This document shows, in pieces, positions 16,652-60,922 of a DNA stretch of 60,922 nt (positions within the stretch are counted from its first letter, which is position 1; every line of letters begins with the position of its first letter). The translations under genes were made by a program, and so were the position numbers. This DNA is from Bacteroidales bacterium (lineage in GTDB: Bacteria; Bacteroidota; Bacteroidia; Bacteroidales; UBA3824). The DNA is taken from contig JAGCDD010000369.1 in the NCBI GenBank assembly GCA_017651345.1, positions 1 to 60,922 on the forward strand, read 5' to 3'. The notes beneath the pieces are model-generated. The model ran no database searches, had not been told where the DNA came from, and saw only the letters and a list, made by a program, of their open reading frames with translations.

Positions 16652-17824
16652 TTAATAATTCAATCCAAACTGCCATAGGGGAATAACATTTAAATAACCG
16701 CTTTCAATATCGTCTTTAACAACATAACTATCAGGAGTGTTCTTAATTTGCCGTTGGGTTTTGCCTTTGCCGCCAACCTCAAATGTCTTGCCATCTACAA
16801 GGAAATCCGACACAGGCGATGCCTTAACTATATTATTTACAGCCAGAAGTGAGAAAAATGCAGTTTCTCTGATGTTCCCGATATTTGGCTTGCTTTCGCC
16901 AAGTGCGTTAATGAGTGTTGTGTTGGCAAGAAACAACTTTTCGGGGCGTTCAATAAGCGACATACCATTACCCGGAGTTCGCAATTGTCGCAAAAGTCCC
17001 GCCTTTTCCATATAGACGATGTAATCAGACACCGTTCCCCGGTCGCACTCTATCGCACGACCAATTTCGGAAAGATTTGGCTTAAAAGGCGAACTCTGCG
17101 CTATCACAAAGAGTAGTTTTTTTAGTTTTTGCGATGTAGTAGCGCTCATTCTGGCAAAGGCAGGAATATCAACTTCAAGTGTTTGGTTAACAACATTATT
17201 GATACGAGCATAATAGCCATCCGCTGCAAAAAAAGGATAACTTCCGCGCATAAGGTACTCGTTCCACAGCGGCAACGGGTGAGGTATTTCGGGTAAATTT
17301 ACTGCATTGTTAACAATTTCGTCGAAAGAATATGCTTTCAAATTAAGCCCTTGTGTCATATTGATATATTCGCGAAACGACATTCCTTCCATTGTATAAC
17401 GTATTGCGCGACGGCTTAGGTCGGCATCGGTAGATTTGCCAATATCGAGAATCGACGAACCTGTAATTATAATATTCAAACCCGGAAGAGTATCGTATAT
17501 CATTTTAACCTCCTGCGACCAACGTTTGTATTTGTGCGCCTCGTCGATGTAAAGATATTTTCCATTGAGTTTGTAAAAGGCTGCGGCTGTGTCGTAAAGA
17601 GAGTGTGCGGCAAAATATGTATTGTCGGCACTGAGATAGAGCGATTCTTTTTCGGCTCCTGAAATTTTAATGTGTTGTAGCAACAAAGTAGTTTTACCCA
17701 CACCACGAGCGCCCACAATAACAATTAGCCGTGATTGCCAATCGACAACGCTATGCAGATACCTTACAAAAGCAGTTTCGGTATTTTTCAGAAGATCGGC
17801 GTATATTTGAAATAATTGTTCCAT
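16652..17824 (-). CDS. DUF4143-type AAA ATPase 1
   Basis: 390 aa. Walker A is VGARGVGKTTLLLQ (about residues 37-50) and Walker B is YLYIDEAHKYKRW with both acidic residues intact. Sensor-like IIITGSSILDI follows. The middle is a winged-helix-like segment and the end resembles the nuclease-like C-terminal part of DUF4143 proteins (SDFLVDGKTFEVGGKGKTQ). These ATPases exist in many copies in Bacteroidota and archaea; their role is not established, with defence or replicon-maintenance proposals. It is monocistronic. Its promoter at 17851-17858 is abutted by three 33-bp palindromic repeats (17865-17948), as seen for the related gene at 21899. Confidence 0.85.
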   Translation of the reverse strand: MEQLFQIYADLLKNTETAFVRYLHSVVDWQSRLIVIVGARGVGKTTLLLQHIKISGAEKESLYLSADNTYFAAHSLYDTAAAFYKLNGKYLYIDEAHKYKRWSQEVKMIYDTLPGLNIIITGSSILDIGKSTDADLSRRAIRYTMEGMSFREYINMTQGLNLKAYSFDEIVNNAVNLPEIPHPLPLWNEYLMRGSYPFFAADGYYARINNVVNQTLEVDIPAFARMSATTSQKLKKLLFVIAQSSPFKPNLSEIGRAIECDRGTVSDYIVYMEKAGLLRQLRTPGNGMSLIERPEKLFLANTTLINALGESKPNIGNIRETAFFSLLAVNNIVKASPVSDFLVDGKTFEVGGKGKTQRQIKNTPDSYVVKDDIESGYLNVIPLWQFGLNY

Positions 17825-17850: not shown

Positions 17851-17858
17851 CAAATATA
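17851..17858 (-). promoter_or_regulatory. Promoter of AAA ATPase 1
   Basis: TATATTTG on the minus strand, 27 bases upstream of the ATG. A TTTG 15 bases further upstream is the spacer of the first palindrome of the repeat array, so a protein bound there would cover the -33 region. Confidence 0.7.
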
Positions 17859-17864
17859 AAAAAT

Positions 17865-17948
17865 TGCGGAATACAAACCGCAGTTTTTAAGAAAAATTGC
17901 GGAATGCAAACCGCAGATTTTATAAAAAAGTGCGGAATGTAAACCGCC
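17865..17948 (-). repeat. Array A: three 33-bp repeats with a palindromic core
   Basis: Cores start at 17865, 17898 and 17931, exactly 33 bases apart. Each is TGCGG, eight bases containing CAAA, then CCGCA (CCGCC in the third), an inverted repeat of 5+5 bases. On the minus strand each core is followed by an A/T stretch beginning AATTTTT or close to it. The array ends seven bases before the -7 element of ATPase 1. Because 33 is a multiple of three, the array reads as an 11-residue protein repeat, which I take as a side effect. Confidence 0.85.
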
Positions 17949-18020
17949 GAATTTAGGAAAGGCTGTTTTTAACCCCAAAAAAGAACCCCCAAATTCTTTT
18001 GTATGTTAAAAGAAAAACAT

Positions 18021-18028
18021 TATATTTG
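18021..18028 (+). promoter_or_regulatory. Promoter of the small antitoxin-like gene
   Basis: TATATTTG with TTTG 19 bases upstream (17998-18001), a near-ideal Bacteroidota promoter. It is 28 bases upstream of the ATG at 18057. Confidence 0.75.
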
Positions 18029-18056
18029 CGCTTGAAAACAAAACATTTACCTAAAA

Positions 18057-18239
18057 ATGACTATACCAGAGCAATATCGCTGCAACCCGTATGAAATCAG
18101 TCCATCTGGCGACCCATTCTTTGCTGATAAGAGGAATGTGGAGTACGTAAGGAAATGCGCAGAGTCGGCAGCCAATGAGAAAGATGTGATTACAATTCAC
18201 GGACACGACGAACTTGACAAATTTCTTGAAACACTATGA
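18057..18239 (+). CDS. Small protein, antitoxin-like
   Basis: 60 aa. The N-terminal stretch NPYEISPSGDPFFADKRNVE and the ending ITIHGHDELDKFLETL resemble small antitoxin-type proteins that precede RelE-like toxins in Bacteroidota, as I recall them; no DNA-binding motif is obvious. It has a strong promoter and its stop overlaps the ATG of the next frame (ATGA at 18236-18239), the translational coupling usual in toxin-antitoxin pairs. The partner frame is broken (see 18236-18409). If it is an antitoxin it is now an orphan. The assignment rests on memory of the family and on layout. Confidence 0.5.
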   Translation: MTIPEQYRCNPYEISPSGDPFFADKRNVEYVRKCAESAANEKDVITIHGHDELDKFLETL

Positions 18240-18409
18240 CATACAACCTGCAATACAAGCCATCAGCGTTAAAGGAAGCATTATCCATACAAACAAACTA
18301 GGTCGCGGCGATTAAAAAATGGAGGATAAATTACCTTACACAAAAATATGTATTAGCAATTTTGTTCGTAACATCACAATTAGGCTCAGGATTACCTGCT
18401 TCAATTTGA
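18236..18409 (+). pseudogene. Broken partner frame of the antitoxin-like gene
   Basis: Starts with an ATG overlapping the upstream stop and reads MTYNLQYKPSALKEALSIQ, reminiscent of RelE/HigB toxin starts, to a TAG at 18299. The same frame then stays open for 35 more codons to a TGA at 18407. One in-frame nonsense codon would explain this, but the second part (WRINYLTQKY and on) is not recognisably RelE-like, so a deletion or rearrangement is equally possible. The end runs into the 3' end of the convergent methyltransferase gene. Confidence 0.35.
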
Positions 18410-19387
18410 AAGAATATTATATATCCTTGTTGCAATTACTTCTGCTAACCTTGGTGGCACTGCGTTGCCAACCATTTTGTAACCATCCTTGATGTCAGAA
18501 TAAATAAACCGAAAAGAATCGGGGAAAGATTGTATTCTCGCACATTCTCTAACACTCAAACGCCTATATAAATGTTCGTAACCTTTGGCAAAAATCCTTT
18601 GGTTGTAAGAAACATATTGCATTTTTGGCGCTTGCGGATGCAAGGGCTCGTTTTTCGCTTGCGCTTGAATCGTAAAAGAAACCTCATCCCAAGAGCGCAC
18701 GCGATTCCTTGACATATATTTTTCGTCAAAATTACCAATATAGACATCGTGGTTTAGATATTTTCCATATTGCTGATTAACTATTTGATTGTCAGAATAA
18801 AATCGAGGTTCTTCGTTTATTCCGCCAATTGCTTGATGCAAAGTTATTGGTTTTTCTGTGGTTGGATTTGGGAAAAGGCAGAATGTATCAAGTTGATTTA
18901 CAATGCCCACAATAATAATACGTTTACGATCTTGCGGAATTTTAAAATCTTTTGTATTAAGCAAAGCATACGTTACATCGTAGTCGGCATTTTCCAATTC
19001 AGAAATAAAATAATTTAGTGTTCCAATATGTCTATCTGATAAAATGCCTTCAACGTTTTCTATCACAAAAAACAATGGCTTCTTTTCTTTTATCAAACGA
19101 ATATAATCGAGGAAAACTTTTCCTCTGTCGTCTTTCAACCCTAAATTTCTACCACCCTCACTCCACGCTTGGCAAGGAGGTCCCCCAATAAAACCGTCAC
19201 AATCAGGTATTTCGACAGTCTTAATAGTGCGAATATCGGCGGATAAGAATTGAGTTTTAGGGTGGTTGTAACGATATGTTTGTTCAACTGTTTTGTCGAA
19301 ATCATTTGCCCAAATTACATCGAAACCTGCCCTCGAAAAGCCTAAATCTAAGCCGCCACAACCGCAGAAAAAAGAACAAACCCTCAT
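18401..19387 (-). CDS. C5-cytosine DNA methyltransferase 2 (specificity unknown)
   Basis: 328 aa. Conserved motifs in order: [13 protein letters not shown] (Cys where Ser/Ala is usual), [17 protein letters not shown] with catalytic Cys72, [46 protein letters not shown] and [16 protein letters not shown]. The target-recognition region (about 185-260) differs from that of the methyltransferase upstream. The ATG overlaps the upstream stop by four bases, so it is the third gene of the HaeIII-like operon. It may add protection at a second site or be the remnant of another system. Confidence 0.92.
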
Positions 19388-20385
19388 ATGGCTTTGTACT
19401 TTTTCAATGTATTTTTTATCTGTGTGGCAACGTGGTACGCCAAGTTGACAGGCACAGCGTTTCCTATCATTTTATATCCAATATTCACATCATCATAGAT
19501 GAATTTGAATTCGTCTGGAAATGTCTGAACTCTTGCCACTTCACGCACAGTCATTCTACGATAAAGATTTTCTTTGCCCGGGACGAAAATTTGTTTATTT
19601 TTTTCTATTTTTATCATTTTCGGGGCTTGTGGATGGAGTTGGCACTGCCGTCCACTTGCCTGAACTGTAAAGCCGGGTTCGTCCCACTGTCTTACTCGGT
19701 TTCGAGACATAAATATCGGCGAATAACTACCAATAAAATACTCGTGATTAGACACTTGACACTTGTCGCCATTGGTCTTGTTGTGTACGAGTGCGGGAAT
19801 CGCATTGTCTTTCAAATCCCAAATTGCTTCGCGCAATGTTGGCTTGTGTTCCAATGGTTTTGGATATTCAAAATCGTTGATTTTTAAATCTTTTCTAAAA
19901 CCAATATAAAACACTCTATCACGGTCTTCGGGCACATCAAAATCGTTGGCATTTAGCATTTTGAGATTTACATCGTAACCTGCATCGTCAAAAAGTTGCA
20001 TAAAACCCTTGACCGCTTCGGAATGACGAGCGGCGAGCATTCCGGAAACATTTTCGGCGACAAAAAACAAAGGTTTTGTCGCTTTTAAAACTCGAATATA
20101 TTCATAAAATAATTGACCTCTGGCATCTTCGATGCCCTTCAACGAACCCGCTTCGCTCCACGATTGACAAGGAGGTCCACCAATTATCCCAATAATGTCT
20201 TTTGGGAAAACATCTTCACTTATTTTGCGAATGTCATCTTCAAGAAGTTCTGTTTCGGGGAAATTAACCCTAAAAGTAGGACATATCTGTTTATCGTATT
20301 CATTGGCTATAACGGTATGAAAACCGGCGTTGTGGAATCCTAAGTCCAAACCACCCGCACCACTGAAAAGACTTATTAACTTCAT
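19384..20385 (-). CDS. C5-cytosine DNA methyltransferase, M.HaeIII family
   Basis: 333 aa from the ATG at 20385 ([17 protein letters not shown]); a TTG seven codons earlier would overlap the endonuclease gene and is not needed. The sequence follows M.HaeIII closely by memory: [19 protein letters not shown] with Cys73 (Cys71 in M.HaeIII), [36 protein letters not shown] and [17 protein letters not shown] in the target-recognition region. The likely target is GGCC, methylated on the internal cytosine. It starts five bases after the endonuclease stop. The strong resemblance in the recognition region makes the specificity call fairly safe. Confidence 0.93.
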
Positions 20386-20390
20386 TTTGT

Positions 20391-21344
20391 TTAGTTCCAA
20401 ATACAATTTATGGTTATAATAGTTGCAGGTAATCCCGCAAGTTGTATGTCAAATTTTAATGTTGGTTTTACGTATGTTTCTGCATTGTGAATACGGAACG
20501 TAAAATACCATCCTCCATCCAAATACAATTCTGCCGTATTGCTTCTTTCGGGCATAAAATCCAATTTAATAATTCGCTTAGGTAATGCTGCAACAGGTAT
20601 TTGAATTTTTGGTTTAGCATTTTTTGCTGGTGCATTCAAAGTACCGTGAATGTTATATGATTGAATCTGAGTTTCCCTTTTTGCGTCAATACTAATTACT
20701 TTATAGAAATCAAACTTACTCAACAGATACTCAACCAATTTTTTGGGGATAGTCGGATTGCTTTCATATTGGCGGTTAATTTCATCTATAAACGCTTGAA
20801 CAAGCGGTTTATACACATCGTTTTCTTTGTCAGGTAACTCGCTGAATTTTGTATTTTTATTTTTCTCTTTTTCAAGATAATCAAAAATAGGTTTAATATC
20901 TGCCCAATATTGTTGTGAGCACGGTACACCATACCATTTGTCACCAAAATCAATTGAGTGAGAAAGACGACTGTGTTTCACTGCAAAATGATTATGCTTA
21001 ATACTCAGTCCTATTTCCCATTGAATATCATTTCTGACAATAATAATGTCGCGGACATCGCCATCTTTCCCTGCTTCATCTTTTTGGATAAAGAGTTCAA
21101 TTATGTCATCGTCTTGTTCTATTATCCTTGGCTCGCAATCGAAAATGGATGGTATCATCGCTAACGCACTTTGATGATAAAGTGTTTTCTCCACGCTTGT
21201 CAGTGTGTCGAATGCTTTTTGTGCGGCTTTGAAACTACTGTTTTCAATTATTTGCACCTTCCGAAACTTGCTAATTTCATCATAAAGTGCATTCAAACAG
21301 ATAAATTCATACGCTCTGCCCTGATTATTGCTAAGATCGCTCAT
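20391..21344 (-). CDS. Type IIP restriction endonuclease, HaeIII family
   Basis: 317 aa from the ATG at 21344 ([20 protein letters not shown]); the in-frame TTG at 21368 is a weaker alternative. Characteristic stretches are [20 protein letters not shown] and [16 protein letters not shown], where D, E and K residues fit a PD-(D/E)XK nuclease core. HaeIII-family enzymes cut GGCC. The cognate methyltransferase follows directly. Endonuclease before methylase on one transcript is unusual because the nuclease is translated first. I found no clear promoter and no controller (C) protein gene upstream. Confidence 0.85.
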
Positions 21345-21368
21345 TTGTGTCGATAAATTTCTGGCCAA

Positions 21369-21590
21369 ATTAAAAAAAAAGAATGACTAAAAAAAATTTT
21401 GTGGGCGCAACAAAATTTACATTTTTACACAAAAACGGCTTACATACACTTACAAGATAGATATAAATATAGATAGCAATTCAAATCTTCAAAACTTCAA
21501 GGCAATTGATTAACTATACTACACATTTTGCGATTTTCGACAAATCGGGTCTACAAGGTATTGTAAGGGGGCTTTTTTTGACATAATAAT
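21369..21590. other. AT-rich gene-free stretch upstream of the restriction operon
   Basis: No convincing coding frame. Runs of A and T dominate near 21370-21400. A possible weak minus-strand -7 element (TAAATTTTG, one base too long) lies near 21415. Nothing else is recognisable before the repeat array at 21596. Confidence 0.4.
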
Positions 21591-21595
21591 CATAA

Positions 21596-21683
21596 GTCCG
21601 AAAAAGTGTGAGTCTTGACCATATTTATGTCCGAAAAAATGTAAAAAACTGAGATTTTATGTCCGAAAAAGTGTAAAAATAAT
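21596..21683. repeat. Array C: three ~33-bp repeats without a linked gene
   Basis: GTCCGAAAAA(G/A)TGT occurs at 21596, 21629 and 21661, spacing 33 and 32 bases, preceded by TAT or TAA and followed by A-rich sequence. The period matches arrays A and B, but no TAnnTTTG element or ATPase gene follows directly on either strand. It may be left over from a lost ATPase gene, or act on array B's gene. Confidence 0.7.
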
Positions 21684-21769
21684 AGGTCAAATATTTAGAA
21701 AACAGACAATTAAACAAAATTAGCAAAAATCAGATTTTAGATGGTGGATTATTCGGTACAAATGGTGGC

Positions 21770-21858
21770 AAATCTTGGTGCCAATTTTTACGTTTTCCAT
21801 TCAAATCTTGATGCCATTTTTTACGTTTTTTTAGTAAAATTCGGTGCCAATTTTTACG
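21770..21858 (+). repeat. Array B: three 33-bp repeats upstream of AAA ATPase 2
   Basis: Units start at 21770, 21803 and 21836, exactly 33 bases apart. The 23-base core is AAATCTTGGTGCCAATTTTT followed by ACG, with a few changes per copy. TTGG-TG-CCAA forms a short inverted repeat in the first unit, followed by AATTTTT as in array A. The array ends nine bases before the -7 element at 21868. Confidence 0.85.
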
Positions 21859-21867
21859 GATTATTAT

Positions 21868-21875
21868 TATATTTG
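21868..21875 (+). promoter_or_regulatory. Promoter of AAA ATPase 2
   Basis: TATATTTG, nine bases after array B and 23 bases before the ATG at 21899. There is no good TTTG at -33, so the promoter may depend on the array region. Confidence 0.65.
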
Positions 21876-21898: not shown

Positions 21899-23218
21899 AT
21901 GAATAACAAATATTTAAAACGGAATATAGACACCGCTCTTACCGAGTGGTAAAATTCGGCAGAACACAAGCCAATTTTGTTACGTGGAGCAAGGCAGGTG
22001 GGAAAGACGTCGGCAGTGCGAAATCTCGGCAGAAAGTTTGAAAACTATGTAGAGATAGACCTTCATCTACGGCAAGATCTACATCCTTTATTTAACAAAA
22101 TGCGAACTCCTCAGCAACTCTGCGAGGAGATAGCGATGCTTGAAGGCTGCACTTTCAAACCTGGCAAGACGCTCTTTTTTATCGACGTAATTCAAGATTG
22201 CCCAGCAGCGATTGGCTGTTTGAGATATTTTTACGAACATTTTCCCGAACTGCACGTAATAGCCGCTGGTTCGCTTTTGGAATTCGCTCTTGAAGAACTT
22301 CCATCGTTTGGCGTTGGACGTATTCACTCACTATATATGTATCCGTTTTGTTTTTCAGAATTTCTCGAAGCCACTAACAATATGCCACTTGCCGCTGCAA
22401 TAGATTCTGCCTCACCATCATCGCCATTGTCCGACATTGTGCATAACCGTCTTTTAGAATTGTTGCGCACTTTTATAATAATCGGCGGGATGCCTGCCGT
22501 TGTTAAAAAATATGCTGAAACTGCATCGCTGACCAATTGTCAGAAACTGCTTGGCGAACTAATAGCATCATTTAGAGACGATTTTGCAAAATATCGGCGA
22601 CGCATTCCCTCTTCGAGAATCGATGCCGTGTTTATGTCAGTAGCGGCGCAATCACAAGGCAAATTTATGTATTCCAAAATTGACGGTGTGCGCACAGAAC
22701 AGGCTCAGGCGGCATTACAGACCTTAATACTCGCTGGATTGGTATATCCTGTTACTCACACTGCTGCAAACGGCATTCCACTTGGTGCAGAAACCGACGA
22801 ACGATACCGAAGAATGATATTGTTTGACACAGGACTATTACAACGTCTACTCAATCTCGATCTAAGCGACATAATACTTACAAATGATACTGCTTTTATC
22901 AACAAAGGGTCTCTGGCTGAGGTGTTTGTGGGCTGTGAATTTGTAAAAAATATGCCCGCCGATTATCCTGCCGCACTTTATTGTTGGCACCGCGACAAAA
23001 AAGGAAGCGATGCAGAAATCGACTACATAGTGCAGCGTCACAATCAAATATGGCCTGTGGAAGTAAAATCAGGTAAGTCGGGCAAAATGCAGAGTTTAAG
23101 AATCTTTATGGAACAAAAACACTCTCCGTTCGGAATCCGTACCTCGCTCGAAAATTTCTGCGAATACGATAACATAAAGGTGTATCCGCTGTATGCAGCG
23201 GGTAATATTGTGAGATAA
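21899..23218 (+). pseudogene. DUF4143-type AAA ATPase 2, damaged by a nonsense codon and a Walker B change
   Basis: From the ATG at 21899 the frame reads MNNKYLKRNIDTALTEW, then TAA at 21950, then continues in frame with NSAEHKPILLRGARQVGKTS and on to 23218. In relatives this position is normally a charged residue (AAA to TAA would explain it). Walker A (RGARQVGKTS) is intact. Walker B reads FFIDVIQDC, where the usual DE has become DV (GTA). The rest of the DUF4143 protein is intact, including the late segment EIDYIVQRHNQIWPVEVKSG, a nuclease-like D...E-x-K arrangement. Restart at an internal TTG (21977) would lose the N-terminus. Two independent lesions suggest early decay; a sequencing error could explain one. 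Confidence 0.8.
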
Positions 23219-60652: not shown

Positions 60653-60922
60653 TTATTTTAACAATGATTGCAGGTTTGCAACATCTTCAACAGATAGTTT
60701 AGAAAGCCTTGCCACCAATTCAACCGACATACCTTCTTTAAGCATCTCAACAGCAGCTTCTTTACGGCCTTCTGCCAAACCTTCTGCCAAACCTTGGGTA
60801 CGGCCTTCTGCCAAACCTTCTGCCAAACCTTGGGTACGGCCTTCTGCACGTCCTTCTGCCAAGCCTTGGGTACGTCCTTCTGCCAAACCTTGGGTACGGC
60901 CTTCTGCACGTCCTTCTGCCAA
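60653..60922 (-). CDS. C-terminal part of an Rpn-like protein with tetrapeptide repeats (5' part outside window)
   Basis: The frame enters from the right edge. 89 codons are visible: 13 consecutive tetrapeptides of the types AEGR, AEGL and TQGL, then KEAAVEMLKEGMSVELVARL and a final SKLSVEDVANLQSLL. The tail has the same layout as the Rpn-family gene at 4851-5738 (EGKAEGIAQ followed by GMSEEVISVIMKLPVEEVEK), so this is most likely the end of another Rpn-type nuclease. The 12-bp DNA repeats keep the frame and can expand or contract in steps of four residues. Confidence 0.75.
   Translation of the reverse strand: MAEGRAEGRTQGLAEGRTQGLAEGRAEGRTQGLAEGLAEGRTQGLAEGLAEGRKEAAVEMLKEGMSVELVARLSKLSVEDVANLQSLLK
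60767..60922 (-). repeat. In-frame 12-bp tandem repeats (AEGR/AEGL/TQGL)
   Basis: Thirteen 12-bp units, some grouped as 24-bp AEG(R/L)-TQGL pairs with near-identical DNA, so recent slippage or recombination is likely. The array continues beyond the window. Confidence 0.85.

Follow-up and report, generated by a model that had tools for sequence, protein, structure and literature searches.

What do tandem repeats in front of an ATPase gene do, and which protein reads them? The question is raised by a stretch of 60,922 nucleotides from a Bacteroidales bacterium (contig JAGCDD010000369.1 of assembly GCA_017651345.1; the whole stretch is called the window in the following), in which two genes for ATPases of the AAA_14/DUF4143 type are each preceded by an array of three repeat units with a period of 33 bp. 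An earlier note, made from the sequence alone, had proposed that each array is specific for the ATPase behind it. Our analysis leads to the reading, to which we assign a probability of roughly 70%, that the array at the promoter of each AAA_14/DUF4143 gene is bound by the encoded ATPase, which in this way controls its own expression. The argument starts from the following elements.

16652..17824, minus strand: ATPase1, with AAA_14, winged helix and DUF4143, 390 residues, intact (Pfam, PADLOC, AlphaFold2)
17851..17858, minus strand: TATATTTG, -7 element of ATPase1 (exact match)
17858..17955, minus strand: array 1, three palindromic units of the TGCGGTTTGCATTCCGCA type, spacing 33 bp (Tandem Repeats Finder (TRF), shuffle test)
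21769..21858, plus strand: array 2, three GGTGCCAATTTTTACG units, spacing 33 bp (TRF, shuffle test)
21868..21875, plus strand: TATATTTG, -7 element of ATPase2 (exact match)
21899..23218, plus strand: ATPase2, with AAA_14 and DUF4143, broken (Pfam, reading of open reading frames)

These elements were followed through the window genome (G000) and 20 relatives (loci carry L numbers); those taken from the relatives were best matches and hand-picked places and not a random draw. TRF delimited array 1 at 17858-17955 (period 33, 3.0 copies) and array 2 at 21769-21858 (period 33, 2.7 copies), and within the 450 nt before the AAA domain their scores exceeded those of all 60 shuffles (47.0 versus a maximum of 13.6 for array 1, and 31.2 versus 14.6 for array 2), so that the two three-unit arrays of the earlier note are real. 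The units of array 1 occupy 17865-17882, 17898-17915 and 17931-17948 on the minus strand, the outer one with two mismatches, and those of array 2 occupy 21777-21792, 21810-21825 and 21843-21858 on the plus strand, the middle one with two mismatches. The nearest unit lies 6 bases from TATATTTG in the case of ATPase1 and 9 bases in the case of ATPase2, exactly as had been read before. An inverted repeat, which had been ascribed to every unit, is clear in array 1 (TGCGG...CCGCA), whereas GGTGCCAATTTTTACG is weakly palindromic at best. When one mismatch was allowed, GGTGCCAATTTTTACG gave 21 hits in six of the 21 genomes, all of them in arrays, compared with three hits for the reversed control. Upstream of an ATPase in G002 that is 79% identical to ATPase1, an array of 3.9 copies related to array 1 is present, with looser sharing of the unit.

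Both genes belong to the same family. ATPase1 matches Pfam AAA_14 above the cut-off (E 5.1e-27), its DUF4143 match falls just below the cut-off of 28.1 bits in the protein scan (27.3 bits, E 3.5e-6) and above it in the genome scan (29.1 bits), and the gene is intact, with a Walker A motif. In ATPase2 both domains exceed the Pfam cut-off, the ATG at 21899 is followed by an in-frame stop 17 codons on, and the acidic residue of Walker B is substituted; full-length open relatives occur in G003, G008 and G011.

The arrays are a general feature of this family in the genomes surveyed. ATPases of the DUF4143 type were matched in all 21 genomes searched, and in the window genome alone DUF4143 was matched 40 times at E 0.001 (35 times over the cut-off) and AAA_14 74 times. 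From 138 distinct open reading frames, 13 were dropped because they had no recognisable Walker A motif or too little upstream sequence, and 125 evaluable AAA_14/DUF4143-type genes, eight of them of the PF01637 class, remained. A tandem array scoring above all 100 shuffles precedes 102 of these 125 genes, which bears out the expectation that most such genes carry one. The period is 32-33 bp in 76 arrays, 34 bp in three, 22-23 bp in ten, 52-54 bp in nine and of other length in four; it tracks the protein subfamily, and 32-33, 22-23 and 52-54 bp are close to three, two and five helical turns. In the window genome, where 47 of the 74 AAA_14 genes were taken, 36 are preceded by a tandem repeat with a score more than 1.3 times that of the best among 60 shuffles. 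Inverted repeats that exceed 20 shuffles were found at 13 of the 23 array-less genes, in some cases with arms of 21-25 bp, and also at 57 of the 102 genes with arrays. One array-less DUF4143 subfamily (L051, L054-L056, L058-L060) has single long upstream palindromes with arms of 15-25 bp.

In control stretches of the window genome, which had been chosen for holding ATPases, significant arrays with a period of 31-34 bp precede 15 of 24 ATPase genes versus 7 of 188 other genes. Of these seven, one is PF09820-like, four lie beside two orphan arrays, and the remaining two apparently use the array of a divergent ATPase in common with it. The PF09820 family had been expected to provide further array carriers, yet among 37 matches in the window genome (28 examined, 26 evaluable) only three have arrays and only one, at period 33, falls in the 31-34 bp range. 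For the PF01637 class (30 matches, 22 examined, 19 evaluable) a period of 49-54 bp was found in ten cases. One ATPase of this class carries a period-53 array (TTGCCACAA) of a similar type downstream as well as upstream (L050:16270-16406). With 40 DUF4143, 37 PF09820 and 30 PF01637 matches at E 0.001, lists that may overlap and contain some matches under the cut-off, the ATPase load of this 4.6 Mb genome is large.

Arrays also extend well beyond these genomes. The first subfamily, that of ATPase1, was sampled by the best 80 of 566 relatives of ATPase1 in named genomes, all but one from Bacteroidota going by their titles, together with 29 others. By a plain tandem score, 44 of 79 evaluable named-genome relatives beat the 95th percentile of shuffles, and in 40 of these 44 the period is 32-33 bp. 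Among 19 plasmid-borne relatives, picked for diversity and not at random, 11 have significant 32-33 bp arrays, namely those from Treponema, the archaeon Methanosphaera, Persicobacter, Emticicia and Parabacteroides in a first set and from Collinsella, Fusobacterium, Acinetobacter junii, Vibrio, Agathobacter and Segatella in a second; arrays thus stand upstream of relatives in six other phyla, one of them archaeal.

The repeats behave like binding sites with a fixed core and a free spacer. In 71 arrays of at least 2.4 copies, columns shared by copies 1 and 2 are also shared by copy 3 in 1395 of 1563 cases, a figure favoured by the fact that array bounds are set by matching, while copy 3 agrees with copy 1 in 82 of 311 columns that are unequal between the first two; fixed core and free spacer still stand. 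The motif TAnnTTTG occurs no more than 80 bp downstream of 96 among 127 arrays; windows on the upstream side of arrays contain it in 14 of 122 cases, and shuffled sequence in 8.8 of 127. By sequence comparison the arrays within one genome are private: among 31 arrays of the window genome (465 pairs), the mean likeness of units is 9.94 of 16 positions versus 10.44 for shuffled units, and ten pairs (2.2% versus 3.0% shuffled) agree at 13 or more of 16. Likeness is greatest between the paralogs L024 and L026, between the paralogs L003 and L004, and between an array near L013 and the L029 array; units are shared between orthologs (L007 with a 97% and L005 with a 99% identical relative). L013 itself is an array-less ATPase; an orphan array of two TTCGGTTTATAARCCGAA units, with a core nearly identical to that of the L029 array in the same genome, ends 331 bp upstream of its AAA domain.

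If each array is read by the protein encoded behind it, unit and protein should change together, and in the first subfamily they appear to do so at a single residue. Paired palindromes 32/33 bp apart were found at 88 of 107 genes (12 shuffles each), and 76 of 107 pass a half-site rule that fixes only TGC (20 shuffles each). In these, bases 4 and 5 of the half-site follow residue 261 (numbering of ATPase1), which is S in 49 genes, D in nine, H in eight, R in five, Q in two, N in two and G in one: D goes mostly with GG (half-site TGCGG), S mostly with AC (TGCAC), R mostly with GC (TGCGC), Q mostly with TT (TGCTT), H mostly with TG or TA (TGCTR) and N with AC or AT. Base 4 shares more mutual information with column 261 than with any other of the 389 alignment columns, as judged from 57 genes under 80% identity; against the two bases together column 261 ranks first by excess and second by z. 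In the AlphaFold2 model of ATPase1 (predicted local distance difference test score (pLDDT) 91.6), residue 261 lies directly before helix 262-274 of the winged helix, which is taken as the recognition helix, so that the top covarying column of this one subfamily would mark the helix's first residue.

In a second subfamily, in which 43 of 45 genes have arrays, a joint regression shows that the similarity of the units is predicted by identity in the winged-helix region (p 0.006 and 0.009) and not by identity in the AAA part; the outcome was unchanged with a refined choice of arrays. The low similarities among the closest pairs involve L021, the GGTGCC units of which are spaced 33/32/33, and L091, for which the array of a neighbour seems to have been taken instead of its own. 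The model of this subfamily (pLDDT 90.8) has helices 238-250 and 266-278 and a wing at 282-308 in the winged-helix region. That the unit of an array follows the gene's own protein is therefore supported by comparison of the sequences, in keeping with the earlier proposal of self-specific arrays.

As a family the proteins themselves are not new, judging from their match to PDC-S01 of PADLOC, a single-gene phage defence candidate. By E value, the tool showing no PADLOC cut-off, PDC-S01 matches residues 30-308 of ATPase1 (E 5.2e-31) and residues 6-437 of the 438 residues of the ATPase2 relative from G003 (E 8.9e-136). Structurally, the ATPase1 model is closest to the archaeal ATPases SSO1545 and PABY2304 (PF01637; PDB 2fna and 2qen; 14-15% identity), followed by CED-4, plant NLRs and clamp loaders in VIA, and Foldseek also retrieved Avs4 and Orc1/Cdc6; for the second subfamily Foldseek gave SSO1545, ORC, Orc1/Cdc6 and NLRs. 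A STAND-type AAA/NB-ARC core with a winged helix is thus present by both methods (2fna, 2qen, CED-4, NLRs). A sequence search against the PDB returned mostly P-loop matches and a weak match to the winged helix of ORC4 (E 0.005). None of the matches listed by VIA-align extended over the C-terminal domain, which says nothing on the fold of that domain. As putative D...ExK residues of a PD-(D/E)XK nuclease, D375, E388 and K390 do not vary among the 45 second-subfamily sequences and lie on or beside model strands 373-380 and 383-389; structural matches barely reach the C-terminus, and the first subfamily has a changed motif, FEVGG.

Likeness to known systems is partial. Orc1/Cdc6 proteins (PDB 2qby and 2v1u; structural E values for 2qby 1.5e-6 and 2.9e-6) likewise place an AAA module and a winged helix on DNA, whereas the sites of the ATPase family lie at its own promoters and differ between paralogs, and its C-terminus is nuclease-like. 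Unlike STAND NTPases such as Avs, CED-4 and NLRs, the 390-residue ATPase1 model shows no repeat sensor domain, and the winged helix of the family appears to read DNA. Self-specific repeats, autoregulation and insulation between paralogs are combined in iteron-binding Rep proteins and autoregulated toxin-antitoxin operators, and self-addressed operators are known as a principle. The ATPases differ from these in belonging to another protein family and in having no antitoxin-like partner at the 80 loci inspected. As far as we have searched, what is new are the arrays across the AAA_14/DUF4143 family, their helical phasing and the apparent code. The module had been thought undescribed, which holds for the arrays and not for the proteins: no description of such ATPases with upstream repeats was found in the literature, of which the PDC-S01 texts were available in part, and under the names DUF4143 or PF13173 the accessible text offered a Thermus gene with changed expression. 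The available part of PMC12988326 introduces PDC-S01 as the fourth most common defence across prokaryotes and as an ATPase fused to a PD-(D/E)XK domain, states that validation is pending for most such candidates, and contains no mention of upstream arrays, autoregulation or a recognition code. IniR of mycobacteria, as far as the accessible text of PMC5760070 goes, has a separate C-terminal SdiA-like DNA-binding domain and regulates another operon.

How would such a gene work? Most of the genes examined carry a private array of about two to five units spaced near whole helical turns, and the array mostly ends beside a -7 element, so that its last unit overlaps the -33 region. The winged helix (residues 228-299 of ATPase1) would read one half-site, a dimer would occupy each palindrome, and several dimers would align along one face of the DNA. 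From this geometry, bound dimers may block RNA polymerase and keep the gene at a low, self-set level. A STAND-like AAA module with a winged helix on phased units would most simply amount to cooperative autorepression with private operators. As paralogs would read different units, dozens of copies could coexist in a genome without controlling one another. A later step, possibly in phage defence since the proteins match the candidate PDC-S01, would involve ATP and the nuclease-like C-terminal domain.

Several results weigh against autoregulation through private arrays. Only 31 of the 79 named-genome relatives have an array above all shuffles, and 31 of the 107 first-subfamily genes have no clear TGC-type pair and were excluded from the code test. 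When the code was tested on a tree built without the winged-helix columns, independent pairs were few (for versus against: D with GG 1:0, D or R with G 2:0, H or Q with T 1.6:0, S with A 2.0:1.1), and with this low power none of the tests was significant. The regional identity test does not single out the winged helix in the first subfamily (permutation p 0.61), and in the second, AAA identity alone also correlates with the units (Mantel p 0.026 and 0.022). A significant array of 32-34 bp is missing at 8 of the 19 plasmid-borne relatives: the arrays of two Aliarcobacter (34 bp) and of Methanomethylovorans (32 bp) stay under the shuffle maximum, that of Vescimonas is significant at a period of 42 bp, and none was found for Acinetobacter seifertii, Desulfosarcina, Thermococcus and B. 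thetaiotaomicron. Finally, arrays are also found apart from ATPase genes, so that an array alone is not tied to the gene. The earlier note would have abandoned its idea if most DUF4143 genes lacked arrays or if the repeats occurred widely without such genes; most genes examined do have arrays, and some arrays do stand alone, which speaks in part against the idea. Two orphans lie in the window itself.

21526..21544, plus strand: single orphan unit TTTTGCGATTTTCGACAAA (no mismatch)
21595..21679, plus strand: orphan array, three TGTCCGAAAAARTGTAAAAA units, the first degenerate, spacing 33/32 (sequence match)

In the larger of the two, GTCCGAAAAA starts at 21596, 21629 and 21661 (spacing 33 and 32), and its unit is identical to that of the array of ATPase L097 in the relative G009, which fits the earlier suggestion that this third array marks a lost member. 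TTTTGCGATTTTCGACAAA is the array unit of ATPase L024, located elsewhere in the same genome, and G005 has three units of this type with one mismatch each. Further orphan arrays of the window genome precede genes that by eye resemble those for a permease and a DUF1016 protein, and follow one that resembles a transporter gene. From such comparisons, orphan arrays look like relics of lost ATPases. The converse, that an array is a landing or recombination site beside which a mobile ATPase gene has settled, empty sites being ancestral, would account for array 1 units directly before trpB in G003 and G005 (the encoded protein being 100% identical to that of the window over the part present) and before a D-Ala-D-Ala ligase gene in G009 and G004, since none of these four genomes has a long ATPase1 match above 44% identity (fragments of 32-83 residues reach 46-59%), and also for L159 in G005, where three array types stand in a row with no ATPase adjoining. 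We nevertheless consider it unlikely. The trpB promoter resembles an ATPase promoter by eye, as expected after gene loss, ATPase-linked arrays end near a -7 element, and comparable orphan arrays vary between relatives in steps of one or more complete units (TGTCCG, three in the window and one in G003; TTTTGCGATTT, three in G005 and one each in the window and G003; TGCGG, two in G009 and one in G004), which may reflect relics that shrink. The TGCGG arrays before the D-Ala-D-Ala ligase gene of two species (L158:7465-7524 and L163:2188-2205) are exactly one 33-bp unit apart.

A promoter array by itself does not name its reader, and a separate regulator might read each array in place of the ATPase. 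This is very improbable, as there is no conserved partner gene, contrary to what the earlier note had allowed for (no neighbour family is found at more than 6 of 80 loci), the dozens of unrelated arrays in a genome would call for as many regulators, and covariation peaks in the recognition helix of the ATPase itself. A single family-wide regulator was rejected, units within a genome being no more alike than shuffled ones. That the arrays are functionless by-products of replication slippage could explain why unit numbers differ between relatives, yet it is barely credible given conserved cores beside free spacers, helical spacing in several phyla and the rarity of arrays before other genes; on the test of core versus spacer this origin was rejected. 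A somewhat different role, which we regard as rather unlikely, is that of a licence or antidote in cis: the ATPase-nuclease would be inactive or counted while bound and would act on DNA when its array is lost, foreign or in excess. The match to PDC-S01, D375, E388 and K390 as invariant residues and a structural resemblance to STAND proteins, among them Avs4 and Avs3, speak for it, whereas orphan arrays coexist with array-bearing genes and the first subfamily has the changed motif FEVGG.

Beyond autoregulation of each ATPase through its own array, a wider interpretation can be put forward as a speculative possibility, which we doubt more than we believe: DUF4143/AAA_14 genes of the PDC-S01 type may constitute a new kind of defence module in Bacteria and Archaea, made up of a single ATPase-nuclease gene and the array that addresses it. 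The winged helix of the STAND-type protein would read a private phased array by a residue-to-base code, and the array, besides setting expression, would signal that its own locus is present and intact; its loss, its titration or the arrival of foreign copies, as in a phage takeover, would then release the nuclease-like domain. The family is counted among the commonest candidate defence genes (fourth across prokaryotes according to the accessible part of PMC12988326, the most frequent single locus in rumen genomes according to that of PMC13356809), and a regulatory feature shared by Bacteria and an archaeon offers a handle on its function and trigger. Both become directly testable, since the sequence of an array by itself predicts the DNA to which its protein should bind. 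If the code holds, the family provides a natural winged-helix series in which specificity depends mainly on one residue and many proteins are paired with their binding sites. Lost genes may also be marked by arrays, and gain and loss of the module could then be read from genomes.

Between the two window arrays lies a further gene set.

18401..21368, minus strand: HaeIII-type restriction-modification set, outside the module (Pfam RE_HaeIII and two DNA_methylase matches, C5 methylases)

In the close relative G003 the two arrays are about 0.2 kb apart and the HaeIII set is absent there; it therefore looks like an insertion into an island of arrays. At 60757-60922 a repeat with a period of 36 bp (CCTTCTGCCAAA units), possibly within coding sequence, runs up to the end of the window.

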